From positions 3,968,001 through 4,032,000 of the forward strand of contig NZ_CP020892.1 of the NCBI RefSeq assembly GCF_002163625.1: a stretch of DNA of 64,000 nucleotides, read 5' to 3'. Within the stretch, counting starts at the first letter, position 1; the number at the start of each line of letters is the position of its first letter. This document shows, piece after piece, positions 28,224-39,076 of the stretch. Under the pieces are notes generated by a model, which worked only from the letters and a program-made list of their open reading frames with translations, had not been told where the DNA came from and ran no database searches. This DNA comes from Pseudomonas sp. M30-35 (GTDB lineage: Bacteria; Pseudomonadota; Gammaproteobacteria; Pseudomonadales; Pseudomonadaceae). The position numbers were made by a program, and so were the translations under genes.

Positions 28224-28937
28224 TCAACTACGCCGACTGGAACGTGAGCGCAGCTTGTAGCGGTCGCCGGGGTGAATCAGCCGCGCGTAGCTAACCAAGT
28301 GTTCATCCGACCAGGTGCGACGGACCATGCTCAGGCACGGCGTAGCGGTGCTGATATCCAGCCACTGCGCCGTTTGGTCGTCGACTAATAACGCTTCGAC
28401 AACATGCTCGACATCAGAAATCGGACAGTTGGCGACCAACACCTCATTGGGCGTCTTTTGCGAGAAGTCGGTTTGCAGATAATCCGGCACCCAACGCGGG
28501 TTAACAAAGCGATCTTCCAGTTGAATCGGCACGCCACTTTCACGGTGCACCAGAATCGTATGGAACACCTCAGTGCCAAGACGCACACCTAGGCGCAGCG
28601 CCACTTCATCGTCTGCCTCAATCGCTTCGCAACGAATCACGTCATTGCTGTATGCATGGCCACGGCTAATGACTTCGGTAGCAATATTCAAGACTTCATG
28701 CAGCGACGATTCGGCTTTGCGGTCAGTAACAAAAGTACCGAGCCCAGCCTGACGGATTAGATAACCTTTTTGCACCAAATCGCGAATAGCCTTATTGGCC
28801 GTCATTCGGCTTACGCCAAAGTCGCGGGCTAATTGCTCTTCGGGTGGAATTTGATGATGGACCGGGTATGCACCGCTGCTAATACGCTCTAGCAGGTGTT
28901 CTTCAATGACACGGTAACGTGGGGTCGTGCTGGCCAC
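28224..28937 (-). CDS. hutC: Histidine utilisation repressor HutC
   Basis: HutC (237 residues) is the GntR/HutC-family repressor of the hut genes, released by urocanate. The N-terminal winged helix-turn-helix is clear (YRVIEEHLLERISSGAYPV, IPPEEQLARDFGVSRMTANK, GLGTFVTDRK). The C-terminal UTRA ligand-binding domain spans residues about 90-230 (DVIRCEAIEADDEVALRLGV, PIQLEDRFVNPRWVPDYL, WSDEHLVSYARLIHPGDRY). It is the last gene of the minus-strand hut operon, after hutH by about 105 nt. TGTATATACA sites near hutI and hutD, at the other end of the operon, are its likely targets; if so, it controls its own synthesis. Confidence 0.95.
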   Translation of the reverse strand: MASTTPRYRVIEEHLLERISSGAYPVHHQIPPEEQLARDFGVSRMTANKAIRDLVQKGYLIRQAGLGTFVTDRKAESSLHEVLNIATEVISRGHAYSNDVIRCEAIEADDEVALRLGVRLGTEVFHTILVHRESGVPIQLEDRFVNPRWVPDYLQTDFSQKTPNEVLVANCPISDVEHVVEALLVDDQTAQWLDISTATPCLSMVRRTWSDEHLVSYARLIHPGDRYKLRSRSSRRS

Positions 28938-29042: not shown

Positions 29043-30578
29043 CTAACCCTGTGACGGCAACACTTTTGCCGGGATCAAGCCAGACAGTACGCGCTGCTTG
29101 AGCAACTCGTCAGCTGCGGCGATATCGGGGGCAAAAAAGCGATCCTCAACGTAGTAAGGCACCACATCTCGCAACACCTTGCGCGCTTGCTCCAACACTT
29201 CAGAGCTTTTCATGCCCGCACGGAAATCCAGGCCCTGACACGCACCCAGCCATTCAACCGCCAACACGCCACGACTATTGGCCGCCATCTCCCACAAGCG
29301 CTTGCCAGCAGCTGGCGCCATTGATACGTGGTCTTCCTGGTTGGCCGAAGTTGGCAAGCTGTCGACACTGTGCGGATGCGCCAATGCCTTGTTCTCGCTG
29401 GCGAGTGCCGCAGCGGTCACCTGAGCGATCATAAAGCCTGAGTTGACGCCGCCATTGGCTACCAGAAATGGCGGTAGCTGCGACATATGTTTATCCATCA
29501 TCAACGAGATACGCCGCTCACTCAAGGCGCCGATTTCAGCAATCGCCAGCGCCAGGTTATCCGCCGCCATAGCCACCGGTTCAGCGTGGAAGTTGCCACC
29601 CGAGATCACGTCACCTTCAGCGGCAAACACCAGCGGATTATCCGACACCGCATTGGCCTCAACCGCCAACACTTCTGCGACCTGGCGCAGCTGCGTCAGA
29701 CAAGCGCCCATGACCTGCGGCTGACAACGTAACGAATACGGGTCCTGCACCTTGTCGCAAGCTTCATGGGAGCGGCCAACTTCACTGCTCGACTCGAGCA
29801 GATAGCGATACACCGCAGCGGCATCAATCTGCCCTCGCTGGCCGCGTGCATCGTGGATTCGCGCATCAAATGGTGCACGTGAACCCAGCATGGCCTCAAC
29901 ACTCAAGGCGCCACAGACCGAGGCAGCAGCGTACAAGTCCTCGGCCTCAAACAGGCCGCGCAGCGCATAAGCGGTGGAAACCTGGGTGCCATTGAGCAAC
30001 GCCAGTCCTTCTTTTGCCGCTAGAGTCAGCGGCTCCAACCCGGCAATCGCCAGCGCCTCTTTTGCTGGCAGCCATTCGCCGCGATAACGGGCTTGGCTTT
30101 CACCAAGCAACACCAAAGACATATGCGCCAGCGGTGCGAGATCACCCGATGCACCCACCGAGCCCTTGAGCGGAATATGTGGATAAACCTCGGCATTGAT
30201 CAGCGCCAACAACGCATCAATAACCTTGCGACGGATACCCGAAAAGCCACGCGACAGGCTGTTGACTTTAAGCAGCATGATCAAACGCACCATGGCGTCA
30301 TCCAATGGCTCACCAATACCGGCGGCATGCGAAAGCACCAGCGAGCGCTGCAGGTTTTCCAGATCTTCCGTGGCAATACGGGTCTGCGCCAACAAGCCAA
30401 AACCAGTATTAATTCCGTAGGCGGTGCGGCCTTGATTGAGAATGCCCTGGACACAGGCGACACTGTTTTCAATGCCTTGATCAGCACTGCTATCAAGCGC
30501 TACATGCTGCGCTTGCTGATAAAAATTACGCAACTGGGCGAGGTTTAACTGGCCCGGCACCAAGGTTAAAACAGACAT
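29043..30578 (-). CDS. hutH: Histidine ammonia-lyase
   Basis: HutH (511 residues) removes ammonia from histidine to give urocanate, the first step of histidine breakdown. The MIO-forming triad Ala143-Ser144-Gly145 is intact ([17 protein letters not shown]). Other active-site elements are present: Tyr in [11 protein letters not shown], Asn in [10 protein letters not shown], Tyr and Arg in [11 protein letters not shown], Phe in [12 protein letters not shown], Glu in [10 protein letters not shown] chose ATG 30578 ([10 protein letters not shown]); a GTG four codons upstream, directly next to the stop of the preceding paralogue, is a possible alternative. It is probably translationally coupled to that paralogue. 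This is the copy expected to do the catalysis. Confidence 0.96.
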
Positions 30579-30590
30579 AATGGTATCCAC

Positions 30591-32129
30591 TCAAAGATCG
30601 AAATTCGGCAGAGCCTGACGCAAGGCGAACAGCGTGTTCACGTCGCGCAGCACTTCATAGGTGTGACGAATATCTTGATACAACGGATGTTCTTCTTCAT
30701 AACTGGCCACCAACTCGCGCAGCAAACCCCATGCGCACCCGGTGCCTTGGCCGAATGGCCGGATTTCAATAAAGTCGAAAGCCTGAGCAGCCAACAGGTA
30801 CTCAATCGCCAACACGTGAAACGCATTTTCAATGGCTTTATCCAACTTCAGTGCCGCGCTTTCACCCAAGCTCAGGTGGTCTTCTTGCAGCCCGGACGTC
30901 AGGAAGTTATCAGTGACTGCTGGCAATGCCAGACGCTTGTTATCCGCAACCAATGAAGCTGCGCTGTATTGAGCAATCATCATCCCTGATTTAACCCCGC
31001 TGCCCTTGGTCAAGAACGGCGGTAGTTTGTTGGCCTGCGGGGTCACCAAACGGTAAGCCCTGCGCTCGGAAATACTGCTCCACTCGCACACCGCAATCGT
31101 CAGCAAATCACAGGCCATGGCCACCGATTCACCGTGCGGATTGGCTTGCGAAATAATCCGGTATTCTGCACCGTCCTTGACCACCAACGGGTTGTCGGTG
31201 GCAGAGTTCAGTTCATCGCTGACTTGACGCGCAGCATGCTCCAGCTGATCACGGCAGGCGCCATGCACTTGCGGAATTGCGCGCAGGCTCAAGGCGTCTT
31301 GCAGGTGCGTGCCTTGACTCTTGGCCACGACTTCACTGCCGGCTAATAACTGGTGCAAGTTGGCCGCAGTCTTTTGCATACCGGTGTGAGCTTTACGTTG
31401 AATGGCCGCTAGACTGATCGCGTCGAACTGACAGCCCAATGCCTCGAAACTCATCGCCGCGACCACATCAGCGCAGCTCGCCAGATGATAAGTGTCAGCC
31501 AGGGTCAAACAGGCCAAGCCGGTCATCGCTGGCGTGCCGTTGACCAAGCACAAACCGTCCTTGGGGCCTAACTCGACTGGCTGCATATCGATACTGGCCA
31601 GCGCCTGACTGGCCGTGACGATTTGCCCGGCATATTCGACATCACCGATGCCCAGCAGCGCCAGGCCAATATGCGCCATGTGTGACAAGTAACCCACTGA
31701 GCCTTGCCCCGGAACCACCGGCGTAATGCCTTGGTTGAGCAAATTCAGCAGGCCGTCGACCACCGCGCCACTCACCCCGGAATAACCGTGGCTGTAGTTA
31801 ACCACCGCGCAGCACATGATCGCCCGCACCTGCTCGCTACGCAGCGGTGAGCTCACGCCGCAGGCATGACTCATCAGCGTATGTCGCGATAGCTTGCTCA
31901 GTTCGCTCGGGGCAAACACCACATCACACAATGCACCAAGGCCGGTGTTGATGCCGTAATGCGGCTTGCTCGAGTTGGCAATCGCCAACACCGCTTCACG
32001 GGCTTCATTAACCCGCATCCAGCGGTAGGCAGACAACTCCATCCGCGCCCCGAAGCGCGCTACGTTAACAACATCGGTCCAGGTAACGGACGCTTCGCTG
32101 AGCAGTACATCAGGCAATGGGTTGTTCAT
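30591..32129 (-). CDS. HutH paralogue lacking the MIO triad
   Basis: This 512-residue protein aligns over its whole length with histidine ammonia-lyase. It keeps YGINTGLGALC, CLVNGTPAMT, NSATDNPLVV, the Arg of LSLRAIPQ and the Glu of LQEDHLSL. The loop that should hold Ala-Ser-Gly reads GQGSVG (141-146) followed directly by YLSHMAHIGL: exactly three residues are missing, so the MIO cofactor cannot form. The active-site Tyr of QDPYSLR is also replaced (QDALSLR), and the GNFHAE motif is ANPHGE. The frame is otherwise intact, in an operon between a BCCT transporter (20-nt overlap) and hutH. It is probably not a lyase; it may assist or regulate HutH or bind a ligand. Confidence 0.9.
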   Translation of the reverse strand: MNNPLPDVLLSEASVTWTDVVNVARFGARMELSAYRWMRVNEAREAVLAIANSSKPHYGINTGLGALCDVVFAPSELSKLSRHTLMSHACGVSSPLRSEQVRAIMCCAVVNYSHGYSGVSGAVVDGLLNLLNQGITPVVPGQGSVGYLSHMAHIGLALLGIGDVEYAGQIVTASQALASIDMQPVELGPKDGLCLVNGTPAMTGLACLTLADTYHLASCADVVAAMSFEALGCQFDAISLAAIQRKAHTGMQKTAANLHQLLAGSEVVAKSQGTHLQDALSLRAIPQVHGACRDQLEHAARQVSDELNSATDNPLVVKDGAEYRIISQANPHGESVAMACDLLTIAVCEWSSISERRAYRLVTPQANKLPPFLTKGSGVKSGMMIAQYSAASLVADNKRLALPAVTDNFLTSGLQEDHLSLGESAALKLDKAIENAFHVLAIEYLLAAQAFDFIEIRPFGQGTGCAWGLLRELVASYEEEHPLYQDIRHTYEVLRDVNTLFALRQALPNFDL

Positions 32130-33714
32130 TTACTGCACCTTGCTGCTCACGACTGTCGAACACTTCAGTGTCTGGTGTTTCCTTTTTGAAAACGAACACT
32201 CGAGCGGCCGAAGCAGCGATAAGGATAAATAGAAACAGCACGGTGAAACCACCAGCTGCCGCGAGATACTTGATGCCATCGACGCCCTGCGCACCGCCAC
32301 CGTAAGCGACCATGATGAAGGCAATCGCACTGATCGAAAGACCCCAGATAATCTTCTGCGACTTGGGCGATTCTTCATCTGCACGAATGTTCTTGGTGCA
32401 GATTGAAGCGATGGTCGAGGTCATGGAGTCCGCCGCCGTGGCGAAGGAGATAATCAAGGTGAAGATCGCCAGTGGCACCAACAGACCTGACATCGGCAAG
32501 TGCTGCAAGAAACCCCACAAGCCAGCTACAGCGCCGTGATCGGTAATAACCTTGATCAAATCGAGGCTGCCATCGAGCTGCCACTTGATCGCCGAGGCAC
32601 CCCAGATTGCGAACCAAACCATGCCGAACACCGATGGCAGAATCCAGTTGATCAGCAGAAACTGACGCAGTGTGCGTCCGTATGAGATTCGCGCTAAAAA
32701 CAGCCCCATCAACGGTGCGTAGGCAATCCAGATCGACCAGTCATACATGGTCCACCACGTCACCAGTGCCTCGCCGCCAGACTCCTTAGTGTCAAACGAC
32801 CAGAGGAAAAAGTTATCCAACCAGTAACCGATCGAAGTCACCGACAGGCTGAAGATATAACTCAGCGGCCCGACGATCAGCAGAATCACCACGAAGGCGT
32901 AGAAAATATAGGCGTTGATTGAGGACAAGAACTGAATGCCGCGCTTGAGCCCCGACAACGCCGAGGTGACAAACACAGCTGTAATTACCAGCGACAACAC
33001 CAGCCATGTCATCGGGCTTGATTGAATGCCGTACTGCGATTCAATCCCCGAGCTAATCAACGCCAACCCCGCCCCAAGCGACGATGCCAGGCCCAGCGCG
33101 ATCGCCAGTACCGAGACAATATCGACCAGCGACCTAACCAGTGGCCGCTTACTATGCGCACCGATTACGGGCGACAAGGTTGAGGCAATCGAGAAGTCTT
33201 TTTTCCGGTTGTAATGCATGTAGGCGATCATCAAGCCGACAATCGAGTACATCGCATACGGAATAAAACTCCAGTTATGGAAACTACGCGCCAAGGCAAA
33301 AATCGCAGCTTCTGCGCTGTTTGGCGCAAACGATTGATTAGCAATTTCACCATAGATGTTACCCAGATAAATGATGGGTTCATTGACTGAGTAAGTCACC
33401 ACGCCGGTCGCAATCCCGCCAGTCAGAGCCATCGCAAAGTTGGAGGCAACTGAAAATGTCGGTTTTGCATTGGCGCCACCAAGGCGGATATCACCAGCCT
33501 TGGAGAAGAAGATGTAAGCCACCAGGCCCAGCACCGAAATCGCTAACAACTGATACAGCCAAGCAAAATCGGAGAGCGAAAAATAGAAGACGTCCTTGGC
33601 CACGCGGACCAACAACTCGTTGTTGAACAAGCCAACCGCTACCGCGATAACAACGACCAGAAATGTCGGGATAAAAACACTACGATTCAGGCTTTTTTGA
33701 CTATTGGAGTGCAT
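32110..33714 (-). CDS. BCCT family transporter, probably for histidine or urocanate
   Basis: This 534-residue inner-membrane carrier has about 12 hydrophobic segments and the betaine/carnitine/choline transporter signature region. The conserved TM8 region reads TMYDWSIWIAYAPLMGLFLA followed by RISYGRT. The usual aromatic box of betaine/choline carriers (YWAWWISWSP) is altered to YDWSIWIAYAP, and the TM2 region contains SVNEPIIYLG. The substrate is therefore probably not choline or betaine. Its place inside the hut operon suggests histidine, urocanate or a related imidazole, which is inference. I chose ATG 33714 (MHSNSQKSL) because AAGGCAG lies just upstream; the longer frame starts nine codons earlier. 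It overlaps the next gene by 20 nt. Confidence 0.85.
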   Translation of the reverse strand: MHSNSQKSLNRSVFIPTFLVVVIAVAVGLFNNELLVRVAKDVFYFSLSDFAWLYQLLAISVLGLVAYIFFSKAGDIRLGGANAKPTFSVASNFAMALTGGIATGVVTYSVNEPIIYLGNIYGEIANQSFAPNSAEAAIFALARSFHNWSFIPYAMYSIVGLMIAYMHYNRKKDFSIASTLSPVIGAHSKRPLVRSLVDIVSVLAIALGLASSLGAGLALISSGIESQYGIQSSPMTWLVLSLVITAVFVTSALSGLKRGIQFLSSINAYIFYAFVVILLIVGPLSYIFSLSVTSIGYWLDNFFLWSFDTKESGGEALVTWWTMYDWSIWIAYAPLMGLFLARISYGRTLRQFLLINWILPSVFGMVWFAIWGASAIKWQLDGSLDLIKVITDHGAVAGLWGFLQHLPMSGLLVPLAIFTLIISFATAADSMTSTIASICTKNIRADEESPKSQKIIWGLSISAIAFIMVAYGGGAQGVDGIKYLAAAGGFTVLFLFILIAASAARVFVFKKETPDTEVFDSREQQGAVNEQPIA

Positions 33715-33746
33715 TGTTGTCTGCCTTATGGGGTGTTGCATCCATT

Positions 33747-33789: not shown

Positions 33790-35457
33790 TTAGCGGTCGC
33801 CTAGCATAGGTAAATCAAGCCCTTGCTCCCGCGCGCAATCTGCGGCGATATCATAACCAGCATCGGCATGACGCATGACTCCAGTACCCGGGTCGTTACG
33901 CAAAACGCGGCCCAGTCGAGCGCGCGCCTCAGGCGTGCCATCCGCCACGATAACCACACCGGAGTGCTGCGAATAGCCCATGCCAACGCCGCCGCCGTGG
34001 TGCAAAGACACCCATGTCGCCCCGCCAGCAGTGTTCAACAGGGCGTTGAGCAGCGGCCAATCAGACACTGCATCGGAGCCGTCGAGCATGCTTTCGGTTT
34101 CGCGGTTAGGGCTGGCGACCGAGCCTGAATCGAGGTGATCACGACCAATTACCACAGGCGCTTTCAGCTCACCGCTGGCGACCATGTCATTGAACGCTTG
34201 AGCAAGACGGGCGCGGTCTTTCAAGCCAACCCAGCAAATACGAGCTGGCAGACCTTGGAAGCTGATGCGCTCGCGAGCCATGTCCAGCCAGTTGTGCAGG
34301 TGCTTGTCATCCGGGATCAACTCTTTGACCTTGGCATCAGTTTTGTAGATGTCTTCTGGATCACCAGACAGCGCAACCCAGCGGAACGGACCAATGCCCT
34401 GACAGAACAGCGGACGAATATAAGCGGGCACAAAACCCGGGAAGTCGAACGCGTTGTCGACACCCTCTTCCAGTGCCATCTGGCGAATGTTGTTGCCGTA
34501 GTCGAAGGTCGGAATCCCCATGTTCTGGAATGCCAACATTGCGCTCACGTGCTCAGCCATCGACTGCTTGGCGGCTTTGACCACCGCGTCAGCATCGGTC
34601 AGTGCACGGTCGCGGTACTCTTCCCAACTCCAGCCTTTTGGCAGGTAACCATTGAGCGGATCATGCGCACTGGTCTGGTCGGTGACCATGTCCGGACGCA
34701 CACCTCGACGTACCAATTCAGGAAGAATTTCAGCCGCGTTGCCACACAGAGCAATAGAGATGGCTTTGCCTTCAGCTGTGTATTTGCTGATACGCGCCAA
34801 GGCATCGTCCAGGTCTGATGCTTGCTCGTCGACGTAACGGGTCTTCAAACGGAAATCGATACGGCTCTGCTGACATTCGATATTCAGCGAGCAGGCACCG
34901 GCCAGTGTTGCGGCCAATGGCTGAGCGCCGCCCATGCCGCCCAAACCTGCGGTGAGCACCCAGCGTCCGCTCAGGTTGCCGTCATAATGCTGGCGACCGG
35001 CTTCAACGAAGGTTTCGTAAGTGCCCTGAACGATGCCCTGCGAGCCGATGTAGATCCAGCTACCGGCGGTCATCTGGCCATACATGGCCAAGCCTTTGGC
35101 ATCGAGTTCGTTGAAGTGTTTCCAGGTCGCCCAATGCGGCACCAGGTTGGAGTTGGCGAGCAATACACGCGGTGCGTCGGCGTGGGTTTCAAATACACCG
35201 ACCGGCTTGCCCGACTGAATTAGCAGCGTTTGGTTGTCTTCAAGGCGGGTCAGCACTTCAACGATTTTGTCGTAGCATTCCCAGTTGCGTGCCGCACGAC
35301 CAATCCCGCCATAAACCACCAGCTCATTCGGGTTCTCAGCTACTTCAGGGTCGAGGTTGTTCATCAGCATGCGCAGTGGCGCTTCAGTCAACCAGCTTTT
35401 AGCGGTCAGTTTGCTGCCACGTGCAGCGCGGATTTCAGTATCACGGAAGAGGCTCAT
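33790..35457 (-). CDS. hutU: Urocanate hydratase
   Basis: HutU (555 residues) hydrates urocanate to imidazolone propionate using tightly bound NAD+ as an electrophile. The sequence is highly conserved: [20 protein letters not shown] near the start, [20 protein letters not shown] (NAD-binding), [19 protein letters not shown], and [20 protein letters not shown] with the active-site Cys. Length is standard for the family. The start ATG 35457 has a strong AAAGGAGCC site. It is followed by the hairpin at 33747-33781 and the BCCT gene. Confidence 0.98.
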
Positions 35458-35486: not shown

Positions 35487-36812
35487 TTAAATAAGGTTGA
35501 GTGAATGCACCAGGTAAGCCAGCGGGATGCTGAATACCAGGCTTAAAACAGTGCGCTGCAGCCAGACCAACAACAGGTCACGCAAGCGCAGGGGAATCCG
35601 CGTGGCAAGCACACAGGGAATCGATGCAGAGAGGAACAGCACGCTGCTGACCGAAACGATGGCGACGACAAACTTGACCATCACCTCGGCATCTTTGAGC
35701 AGTATTGCGGGGAGAAACATTTCGGCCAGACCCGACGCGATAGCACCGGCGACCTGCATCGGATCACTGACACCCAGCAGCCATGTCAACGGGTAAAACA
35801 GCACACCCAAGGCATCAAAAACCGGGGTGTATTTGGCGGCCAGCAAACCCAGCAGCCCTACCGCTAGGATGCTTGGCAAAATGGCTGCGGTCATACGCAA
35901 ACCATCAACAAAGGTTTCACGCAACGACAGCCACAAAGCCGGTGCCTGGCCAGCTTGCGCAAGGCCTGCATTCCATGCGCTGGCAATACGGCTTTCACCC
36001 ACTTTAAGCGCTGGCTCTGGGCGGCTCTCGTCAGGTAACTTCGACAGCGGATAGATGCGCGCACTCACCGCAGTCACGCTAAAGGTGACCAGCATTGCGC
36101 TCCAGAAATACAGGTTCCAGCTGCCCATCAGGCCGAGTGTCTTGGCGATGATGACCATGAATGGCGCCGACACGGTGGAGAACCCCGTCGCGATTATTGC
36201 CGCCTCGCGCAGGCTGTAATGGCCTTGTTGATACATGCGATCAGTAATCAGCAAGCCCACCGAGTAGCTACCGACAAACGAAGCCACCGCATCAATCGCT
36301 GATTTGCCCGGCGTGCGCCAGATTGGACGCATGACTGGCTGCATCAAAACACCAATCAATTCGAGCAGGCCAAAGCCAATCAGAAATACCAGCGCCAGCG
36401 CGCCCAGCGGTACGATCAGGGCAAGGCTCAACACCAGTTTATCGAACAGAAACGGCAGCATACCCGGTGCATAAAGCGCTTGCGGGCCGATGCGCAACAC
36501 ATACGCCACACCGATCAGCAGTCCACAGACCTTGAGCACGCTGAACACCGTGGTTGTCAGGTCCTTGCGCCAGCTACCACTGAGCCAGGGCTGCAATGCG
36601 CCATACAGCATAAACAGCAGAGCGATGACGATGACCAGCGGCCGGGCATTGGCTTGCAAGGCACTGGCAGCATGGTCGAGAAGAATGGTTGAGCGCCCAC
36701 CGATGGTGAACGGCACAAAAAAAATCAGCAGACCAATAAAGCTGTAACCCAACAGGCGCGCCAGGGCTCGTGGCTTTGACACGCCAGTCGTTAGCGATAG
36801 TTGTTCACTCAT
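35487..36812 (-). CDS. YjiH family / nucleoside-recognition (Gate) domain membrane protein
   Basis: This 441-residue inner-membrane protein has about 10 hydrophobic segments. It resembles the YjiH family with two nucleoside-recognition Gate-like halves ([40 protein letters not shown]; and [40 protein letters not shown]). Genes of this family are often found in hut operons, so a role in uptake or export of a histidine-pathway compound is likely, but the substrate is not known. It lies between hutG (115-nt gap) and hutU (29-nt gap) on the same strand. Confidence 0.85.
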
Positions 36813-36927: not shown

Positions 36928-37869
36928 TCAGCCAGTCAGAGACAGCAGGTGGATTAACCTCGCCGCAACCCGTGCGGTGCGAGTGTCGATGTCATGGTTT
37001 GGATTCAGCTCGGCCAAATCTGCAAGGCGTAACTTGCCGCTGTCGCGAATCTGCTCCAACAAGGGTTCAAGCAACGCTAACGGCACACCACGAGGCGCCG
37101 GAGCGCTGACACCTGGTGCCTCGCAGGCAGGCAATACGTCGATATCAATCGTCAGGTAGATAACATCGCAGGCATCGATAAAACCCTGCACGTCTGCAGC
37201 AATCTCGCGCAGGCTGTCGGGGCGGATTTGGCGGTCTTCGCGCACCAGAACATCCAGCGCCTCTGCACGCTGAAACAGCGCACGGGTGTTGCTTGCCCGG
37301 CTTACACCAAGGCAGGCATAACGAAATGGCCAATTGCGCTGCGCACATTGCTCGGCAATTTGCGCGAACGGTGTGCCGGATGAGCGCACAAAAGCGGGGT
37401 CACGCAGGTCAAAATGGGCATCGAAATTAATGATGCCAATGCGCGGTGCAACATCGTTAGCCATGTGCTGGGCAAGACCTTGCCAGCTACCAAAGGCAAC
37501 CTCATGTCCGCCACCCATCACAATCGGCAAGTGCCCGGCGTCGAGCAATGCCGCAACATTAACGCCGAGACGCGCCTGCGCTGCCTCAAGATTGTCATCT
37601 GCGCAGACCACATCACCAGCATCAAATGCCGGGCCGTTGCGGTGCCAAGCCAGATTAGCCAAGGCTTTACGCATAGCTTCAGGGCCAGCGGCAGCGCCGA
37701 CGCGACCATGATTGCGGCGCACACCTTCATCACTGGCAAAGCCGATTAACGCAACACCGGGCTGCGCATCAGAAGTCAGCGGTTGAATGCGCTGATGCCA
37801 GCGTGGGCTATCTGCCTCAGGGTCAGTGCGCCCGGCCCACAGCTGCATTGAGTGGCGATCAACGGTCAT
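36928..37869 (-). CDS. hutG: Formimidoylglutamase (arginase-type HutG)
   Basis: HutG (313 residues) splits N-formimidoylglutamate into glutamate and formamide. It belongs to the ureohydrolase (arginase/agmatinase) fold. The Mn-binding residues are visible: His in [10 protein letters not shown], Asp-x-His-x-Asp in [10 protein letters not shown], and Asp-x-Asp in [19 protein letters not shown] is also typical of formimidoylglutamase. This differs from the N-formylglutamate deformylase called HutG in P. putida, which works after HutF. No hutF is present in the window, so the local route is the four-step one. ATG 37869 overlaps the hutI stop by 11 nt, indicating coupling. Confidence 0.92.
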
Positions 37870-39076
37870 GGGTTAGCACTCCAGCAAATACACGCTGACG
37901 CAAACGGCCGGGCTGAACTGCATAAGCCAGCTCTGCAGGTTGCTGCACATCCCAAACACACAGGTTGGCAGGCGCACCGACCGCGATACAGCCAAGGTCT
38001 TTGCGCCCGATCGCCGCTGCCGCATGCGCAGTCATCCCGGCCAGTGCTTCACGTGGGGTCATGCGAAACAGGGTGCAGGCCAGATTGAGCATCAAGGTGG
38101 GAAAACAAATAGGTGAGGTGCCCGGATTAGCATCGCTGGCCAACGCCATTGGCACGGCGTTATCGCGTAGCAATTGAATCGGCGGTAACTGCGTTTCGCG
38201 CAAGGTATGGAACGCACCCGGCAATAGGGTCGCAACAGTACCCGCTGCGGCCATGGCCTTAACCCCGGCTTCATCAAGGAACTCAATATGGTCAGCCGAT
38301 AGCGCACCGTAGCGTGCAGCCAAGGCACTGGCGCCTTGATTAGACAGTTGCTCGGCATGCACTTTTATCGCCAGGCCATGGGCCTGAGCGGCTATGAACA
38401 CGCGTTCGGTTTGTGCAGGGCTAAAGGCAATGTTTTCACAAAACACATCCACCGCATCGGCCAAACCTTCGGCTGCGGCCGCCGGGATCATCTGCTCACA
38501 GACCAGGTCGATGTAGCCGTCGCTGTCATCAGCATACTCGGGCGGCAAGGCATGGGCGCCGAGCAATGTTGTGGTGATATGTACGGGGAGTTTTTCAGCA
38601 AGACGCCGCGCGACACGCAGCATCTTCAGCTCATCAGCGACGGTCAAACCGTAACCCGACTTGATCTCAACACTGGTGACGCCATCATCAATCAATGCCT
38701 GTAGCCGTGGCAGCGCCTGCGCTAGCAGTTCAGCTTCACTGGCTGCGCGAACGGCGCGTACTGAACTGATAATGCCGCCACCGGCGCGGGCAATCTCGGC
38801 GTAGCTGGCACCTTCAAGGCGCAGTTCAAACTCGGCGGCGCGGTTACCGGCAAACACCAGATGGGTGTGGCAGTCGACCAAGCCTGGCGTCATCACACCG
38901 CCCCGCCCTACTTCGACAGCACCCGACGCGTTGTGCAGATCAAAACTGGACTCTGGCCACAGCCCGGCGACCCAATCACCTTTAACCAACACGGCCATAG
39001 GCTCGGGTAGCGTCTGTATTCCATCGAAAACACTGACATCACGCCAGAGCTTTGCATCTTGACTGGATAACGGCAT
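37859..39076 (-). CDS. hutI: Imidazolonepropionase
   Basis: HutI (405 residues) hydrolyses imidazolone propionate to formimidoylglutamate. It is an amidohydrolase-fold metal enzyme. The metal-binding His pair is in [20 protein letters not shown]. The catalytic and further metal ligands are in [34 protein letters not shown] and [11 protein letters not shown]. It is the first gene of the minus-strand operon. ATG 39076 follows GGAGCAATCCG. A promoter with an overlapping HutC-type site lies 20-60 nt upstream (39098-39133). Confidence 0.97.

Follow-up and report, generated by a model that had tools for sequence, protein, structure and literature searches.

A MIO-less histidase paralogue in the hut cluster of Pseudomonas sp. 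M30-35 is a predicted hercynine trimethylamine-lyase

We report that the histidine utilisation (hut) cluster of Pseudomonas sp. M30-35 encodes, next to the canonical histidine ammonia-lyase (HAL) HutH, a HutH1-type paralogue without the Ala-Ser-Gly triad that forms the catalytic 4-methylideneimidazole-5-one (MIO) group. The window, i.e., the whole stretch of DNA analysed, comprises 64,000 nucleotides (assembly GCF_002163625.1, contig NZ_CP020892.1, positions 3,968,001 to 4,032,000), and the paralogue is located at 30591..32129 on the minus strand. Based on its sequence, predicted fold, conservation, selection and gene context we consider it likely that the paralogue is a MIO-independent lyase that converts hercynine (histidine betaine; N,N,N-trimethyl-histidine) to urocanate and trimethylamine, feeding the urocanate hydratase HutU. 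An initial annotation had proposed that the protein is maintained for a non-lyase purpose; this is the weaker reading. The annotation did not take into account that a MIO-less lyase with the HAL fold is already known, namely ergothionase (PDB 6s7j), which has trimethylamine as leaving group.

The open reading frame starts with ATG, has no internal stops and encodes 512 amino acids with the HAL fold predicted over the full length (PF00221, 505.9 bits). With 486.5 bits it misses the NCBIfam hutH equivalog cut-off of 539.15, while the adjacent HutH scores 726.2. Aligned with the HutH of the same operon the loop of the paralogue is three residues short: GSVGY is followed, after the gap, by LSHMAHIGL, and Tyr147 occupies the position of the Asp that follows the MIO triad in HutH (codons of Gly143-Ser-Val-Gly-Tyr147 at 31689..31703, minus strand, with Tyr replacing Ala-Ser-Gly-Asp). 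The initial annotation was right that the triad is missing between aligned flanks; of its claim that exactly Ala-Ser-Gly is absent, the shortening by three residues stands, but which three letters were "deleted" depends on the alignment. Ala-Ser-Gly occurs nowhere in the translation of the paralogue (whole protein checked), which rules out that a MIO is supplied from another segment. Two further losses that had been pointed out are also present, in that QDPYSLR of HutH reads QDALSLR (Tyr280 to Leu280) and GNFHAE reads ANPHGE (Phe329 to Pro331). Retained are Tyr58 (HAL Tyr53), His88 (His83), Asn197 (Asn195), Gln277, Arg283 and Glu416 (Glu414), among them the Tyr, Asn, Arg and Glu reported earlier as unchanged.

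We infer substrate, reaction, import and residue roles, the roles by analogy with HAL, for which we assume residue numbers and functions that the HutH of the window fits with an offset of one. Hercynine would be imported by the betaine/carnitine/choline carrier (BCCT) encoded beside the paralogue or, in most Pseudomonas relatives, by HutXWV, an OpuAC-type ATP-binding cassette (ABC) transporter. In the active site His88 and Glu416 would hold the imidazole and Arg283/Asn197 the carboxylate, Tyr58 would abstract the beta proton, and trimethylamine would depart, leaving urocanate to be degraded by HutU and the remaining hut operon. The pocket for the trimethylammonium group may be made up of Tyr147 and the space freed by the Tyr280 to Leu and Phe329 to Pro changes. 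The lyase would dispense with MIO because hercynine brings its own good leaving group.

Homologues share the deletion. GSVGY was present and GASGD absent in all of the 120 best of 7,396 homologues, and the same was true for 80 of 80 loci, the best 80 of at least 579 encoding places in a genome scan. The scan covered a one-genome-per-species collection and used two conserved stretches of the paralogue family as patterns, so that little else could be found; what matters is that none of the copies retrieved has the triad. One lyase (L137) carries ASGD elsewhere in the protein and is itself MIO-less. Comparison with the nearest relative fetched (L055) gave nonsynonymous/synonymous values (dN/dS) of 0.021/0.877 for the paralogue and 0.027/0.945 for HutH, i.e., selection on the paralogue is as strong as on HutH. 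Decay to a pseudogene was ruled out by this purifying selection together with the family-wide conservation.

The suggestion that the BCCT neighbour is relevant gained support from the transporter partners. The MIO-less lyase (at least 57% identity) is carried by 97 of 298 Pseudomonadaceae genomes; HutX lies within 5 kb in 88 of these and a BCCT within 3 kb in four, while five have neither, which places a betaine-family carrier near the lyase in 92/97. HutX is an OpuAC protein (glycine betaine binding family), and the Hut transporter of S. meliloti is said to transport both histidine and proline betaine. In the converse test all four BCCT orthologues and 88 of 106 HutX orthologues (at least 67% identity) were close to a MIO-less lyase, and for HutX orthologues with at least 76% identity the figure was 88/93. 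Directly upstream of the lyase in the 80 loci we found the HutV ATPase (62), a BCCT (15), an NCS1 permease (1) or the contig end (2), where 62 of the 78 upstream calls represent one arrangement in Pseudomonas and its kin; flank genes at the fetched loci, which are GC-rich, were identified by tblastn with reference proteins. Hence two unrelated carrier families of the same substrate class substitute for each other beside the lyase. The BCCT is the partner in some Pseudomonas and in Halomonas, Vreelandella, Zobellella, Oceanimonas, Salinicola and Paracoccus, and HutXWV in the remaining Pseudomonas. BCCT as the constant partner was ruled out, HutXWV being the commoner one.

The partner BCCTs resemble BetP and the trimethylamine transporter 8zw8 in belonging to PF02028 and in an aligned ARIS-GRT stretch. 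They are nevertheless a type of their own: all 19 of those compared, the carrier in the window included, have WWTMYDWSIWIAYAP without any change where BetP and 8zw8 have WTIFYWAWW, with MYDWSIW opposite IFYWAWW. The Asp in the MYDWSIW stretch would suit a substrate with an extra cationic or hydrogen-bonding group.

The loss of MIO, Tyr280 and Phe329 with retention of the ligand-binding residues, and the location of the gene between the BCCT gene and hutH in one tight cluster, could also be understood if the paralogue were a pseudo-histidase without catalytic activity, acting either on HutH as a regulator in mixed tetramers or as a sensor of histidine or urocanate. We regard this as unlikely. 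Tyr58, which would abstract the proton, is invariant in 21/21 aligned members of the paralogue family, and the lyase pairs with an importer and not with hutH. The initial annotation had raised the question of whether relatives always occur with hutH and the BCCT gene. The BCCT part did not hold (4/97 versus 88 with HutXWV); as to HutH, a canonical MIO enzyme was present somewhere in 21 of 22 lyase genomes tested (two of these appear to be the same genome), so that a partnership with HutH is possible by co-occurrence, with the transporter link and the genus Salinicola arguing against it. In the flanks of the 80 loci hutU was found in 69 and HutH in 64. Transporter-lyase units without any other hut gene in the fetched flanks were seen at five loci with a LysR-like gene (by appearance), HutXWV and the lyase (L128, L130, L137, L138 and L144), and at L080 with BCCT and lyase alone; at L077 this pair is accompanied by HutD. 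Among 18 Salinicola genomes searched the lyase was found in six and a canonical HutH in two, and in five of the six lyase-bearing genomes, in which hutC, hutU, BCCT, lyase and hutI are clustered, no canonical HutH was found. These units and the five Salinicola genomes fit mixed tetramers with HutH poorly.

In one of the HutH-less Salinicola genomes (G680) the PF00221 members are a MIO enzyme resembling phenylalanine ammonia-lyase (PAL) by motif, the MIO-less lyase and, next to an OpuAC transporter, a lyase of the ergothionase type. The sixth genome (G701) carries two clusters on a single contig: in the first a MIO HutH accompanies amino-acid-type ABC genes, and the second contains the MIO-less lyase with an OpuAC protein close by. 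Beyond this genus, a Klebsiella plasmid carries hutF, hutC, hutD, hutU, hutI and hutG around an OpuAC binding protein, its permeases and a more distantly related MIO-less lyase, which is the sole lyase matched in that record; on a Priestia plasmid hutU and hutI occur together with transporters of the major facilitator superfamily (MFS), and the sole matched lyase is again MIO-less. The HutH of S. meliloti pSymB (L146) was tried as a MIO-less HutH2 and rejected, as the triad is present; no search was aimed at the HutXWV-HutH2 operon of this species.

The closest functional parallel to the proposed hercynine lyase is given by ergothionase (PDB 6s7j/6s7q; Treponema denticola, Burkholderia sp. HME13), which also has the HAL fold without MIO. 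In 6s7j the residue equivalent to Tyr280 is likewise Leu and the imidazole-side His and Glu are kept; ergothionase eliminates trimethylamine from ergothioneine, and elimination of the same group is predicted for the window lyase. Since ergothionase is the only characterised MIO-less HAL-fold member named in the literature covered, and since one sulfur separates hercynine from ergothioneine, the paralogue might act on ergothioneine, or on another imidazole or aromatic betaine. The equivalents of His83 and Glu414 point to an imidazole, but they are also kept in ergothionase and do not allow a choice between hercynine and ergothioneine. We find this alternative distinctly unlikely given the pathway context and the phylogeny. 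The source genome (G000) had no match to the thiourocanate hydratase model NF058530 at a limit of E 1e-220, and its HutU is below the cut-offs for both the thiourocanate and the S-methylthiourocanate hydratases. Ergothionase kin lie beside a hydratase of the thiourocanate type, whereas the window lyase lies beside an ordinary HutU; an ergothionase-type lyase was found by tblastn at four of five thiourocanate hydratase loci, with the motifs read in two. The loop of ergothionase is one residue short and without the Tyr, whereas that of the window lyase is three short; at the site of GSVGY, ergothionase and those lyases that adjoin a thiourocanate hydratase read SSIGEGD or GSIGCAD, and the NGT motif of Asn195, kept in the window lyase, is lost in ergothionase. 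A binding protein of a Gram-positive quaternary-amine ABC transporter bound hercynine approximately 10,000-fold less than ergothioneine (PMC9732360), which implies that such proteins are able to distinguish the two compounds.

The ergothionase-type group splits off with support 100/99 in a 44-row tree, where the 17 rows that make up the core group of the window lyase stay together (100/100) on the side of HAL. After removal of the loop and the two lost-motif columns and of the long row L044, the ergothionase-type group still has 100/100; the trees are unrooted, and long branches were flagged in both. Direct assignment of the paralogue to ergothionase was ruled out by tree and loop. A possible single origin of all lyases with the three-residue-short loop has support 71/85 in the 44-row tree, while with the trait columns and L044 left out these lyases take three changes (approximately unbiased test, p-AU 0.325). 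A "deleted" MIO is the natural reading, and absence from the start is also compatible with the unrooted tree.

Compared with the HutH of P. putida (1b8f; EC 4.3.1.3) the window lyase has the same fold, 36% identity and most substrate-binding residues in common, and urocanate, the product of HutH, is its predicted product; it differs in having no MIO triad, in the loss of Tyr280 and Phe329 and in its score below the equivalog cut-off, and a HutH is present in the same operon. The paralogue might also be a histidase that works without MIO through another mechanism, as it is the leading candidate for the opening step of the hut pathway in the five Salinicola genomes. We judge this to be very improbable, as removal of MIO in a related lyase, RxPAL (S153A), practically abolished activity (PMC3903478) and most of the paired carriers belong to betaine families. 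The guess that this is a recognised but uncharacterised Pseudomonas paralogue appears to be correct: judged by gene order, HutH1 of P. fluorescens SBW25 (hutTu-hutXWV-hutH1) belongs to the family present at the HutXWV-lyase loci, with HutXWV as carrier in place of the BCCT in the window, and it is described as a histidase in a review (PMC8871633).

Several observations weigh against hercynine as the substrate, or reduce the weight of the counts given above. The canonical HutH accompanies the lyase in nearly all genomes tested, and of the HutH-less Salinicola genomes one (G707, with the contig of L079) is a metagenome-assembled genome, completeness being given for none of the five. The five of 97 Pseudomonadaceae genomes with neither HutX nor BCCT (G265, G005, G106, G083 and G100) have an amino-acid ABC transporter beside the lyase, the G100 copy of which contains one stop; an amino-acid ABC transporter is also the nearby one in the Erwinia and Rhizobium relatives, and in Priestia it is of the MFS type. 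Eighteen of the 106 HutX orthologues have no MIO-less lyase within 5 kb. The relatives were gathered by similarity to the paralogue, and near copies are non-independent events that inflate the counts. Two MIO-less copies from the same genus with 45% identity (G222 and G188; L059 and L060) have neither BCCT nor HutX, and their flanks contain no hut gene and none of the reference genes; since their motifs diverge (QEDH to QEDI, ANPHGE to AHAVSA) their substrate may differ. HutXWV of P. fluorescens participates in histidine uptake according to PMC8871633, so its presence alone is no proof of a betaine substrate. In both trees the window lyase is apart from ergothionase and nearer HAL, which means that its function was not inherited from the characterised MIO-less enzyme. 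Finally, the trimethylamine methyltransferase PF06253 had no match in the source genome.

Read along the minus strand, the cluster consists of hutI, hutG, YjiH-like, hutU, BCCT, MIO-less paralogue, hutH and hutC, in this order; all coordinates below refer to that strand. The BCCT gene, for the predicted hercynine importer (32110..33741; PF02028, 388 bits with a cut-off of 27), and the start of the paralogue overlap by 20 bases. Directly downstream of the paralogue lies hutH for the canonical histidase (29043..30590; TIGR01225, 726 bits, above cut-off), with GSVGASGD and the Ala-Ser-Gly codons at 30144..30152 (from translation and comparison), followed by the repressor gene hutC (28224..28937; TIGR02018, 279.5 bits, above cut-off). 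Upstream are hutU for urocanate hydratase (33790..35457; TIGR01228, 995 bits), the single PF01175 match and only urocanase found in the genome, and a gene for a membrane protein with a Gate domain (35487..36812; PF07670), which we take to be YjiH-like. YjiH-like Gate-domain proteins recur in hut clusters of Pseudomonas, Zobellella, Oceanimonas, Halomonas and Salinicola, and this protein is possibly a candidate carrier of a hut compound. The genes for a hutG-type hydrolase (36928..37869) and imidazolonepropionase, hutI (37859..39076), are open reading frames named by position and resemblance. A third family member in the source genome (L002, G000:C1:4350124-4351470) resembles phenylalanine/tyrosine ammonia-lyases (PAL/TAL) by motif and has an intact MIO triad. 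A defence library search gave no match.

MIO-less HAL-fold members are more varied than annotation suggests. A second type (L062:9821-11413 and L061:8917-10431) has GSVGYLAVEGH or GSVGYLGPEGH, retains the Tyr of QDxYSLR and NFDGS and lies beside an amino-acid ABC transporter; its L062 copy exceeds the NCBIfam PRK09367 histidase cut-off without MIO (540.2 versus 524), so that the histidase name assigned automatically is misleading. In Salinicola corii an ergothionase-type MIO-less lyase (L078:13993-15528; GSLGAAD) is encoded a few kb away from the hut cluster, next to an OpuAC ABC transporter of its own, and a relative of it on a Rhizobium plasmid (L040) adjoins a gene with the annotation glycine betaine binding protein. 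Further MIO-less lyases are present on Polaromonas, Sinorhizobium and Paracoccus plasmids (L042, L043 and L044, with GSVGAAD, GSVGQAD and GSVGEAD, respectively); no annotated hut gene adjoins L042, and the records of L043 and L044 are unannotated.

No report of a hercynine lyase was found in open-licence PMC texts, a scope mostly outside subscription journals, such that prior publication is possible. Taken more broadly, we think the chances somewhat better than even that hut operons in approximately one third of Pseudomonadaceae species (97/298 genomes), in Halomonadaceae and in other bacteria have two entries, histidine via HutH and hercynine via a new trimethylamine-lyase. This enzyme would have arisen independently of ergothionase, either through loss of MIO or from a form that never had it. 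The many genes annotated as "second histidase" would then constitute a large, so far overlooked hercynine sink and trimethylamine source, and some lineages, such as Salinicola, would run the hut pathway on the betaine alone. If true, this would represent a new enzyme activity together with a new transporter specificity (BCCT with MYDWSIW, and HutXWV), and a route for the carbon and nitrogen of environmental hercynine. It would also be a second MIO-free catalytic solution within one fold, and would bear on the purpose of MIO, which might be to activate poor leaving groups only.
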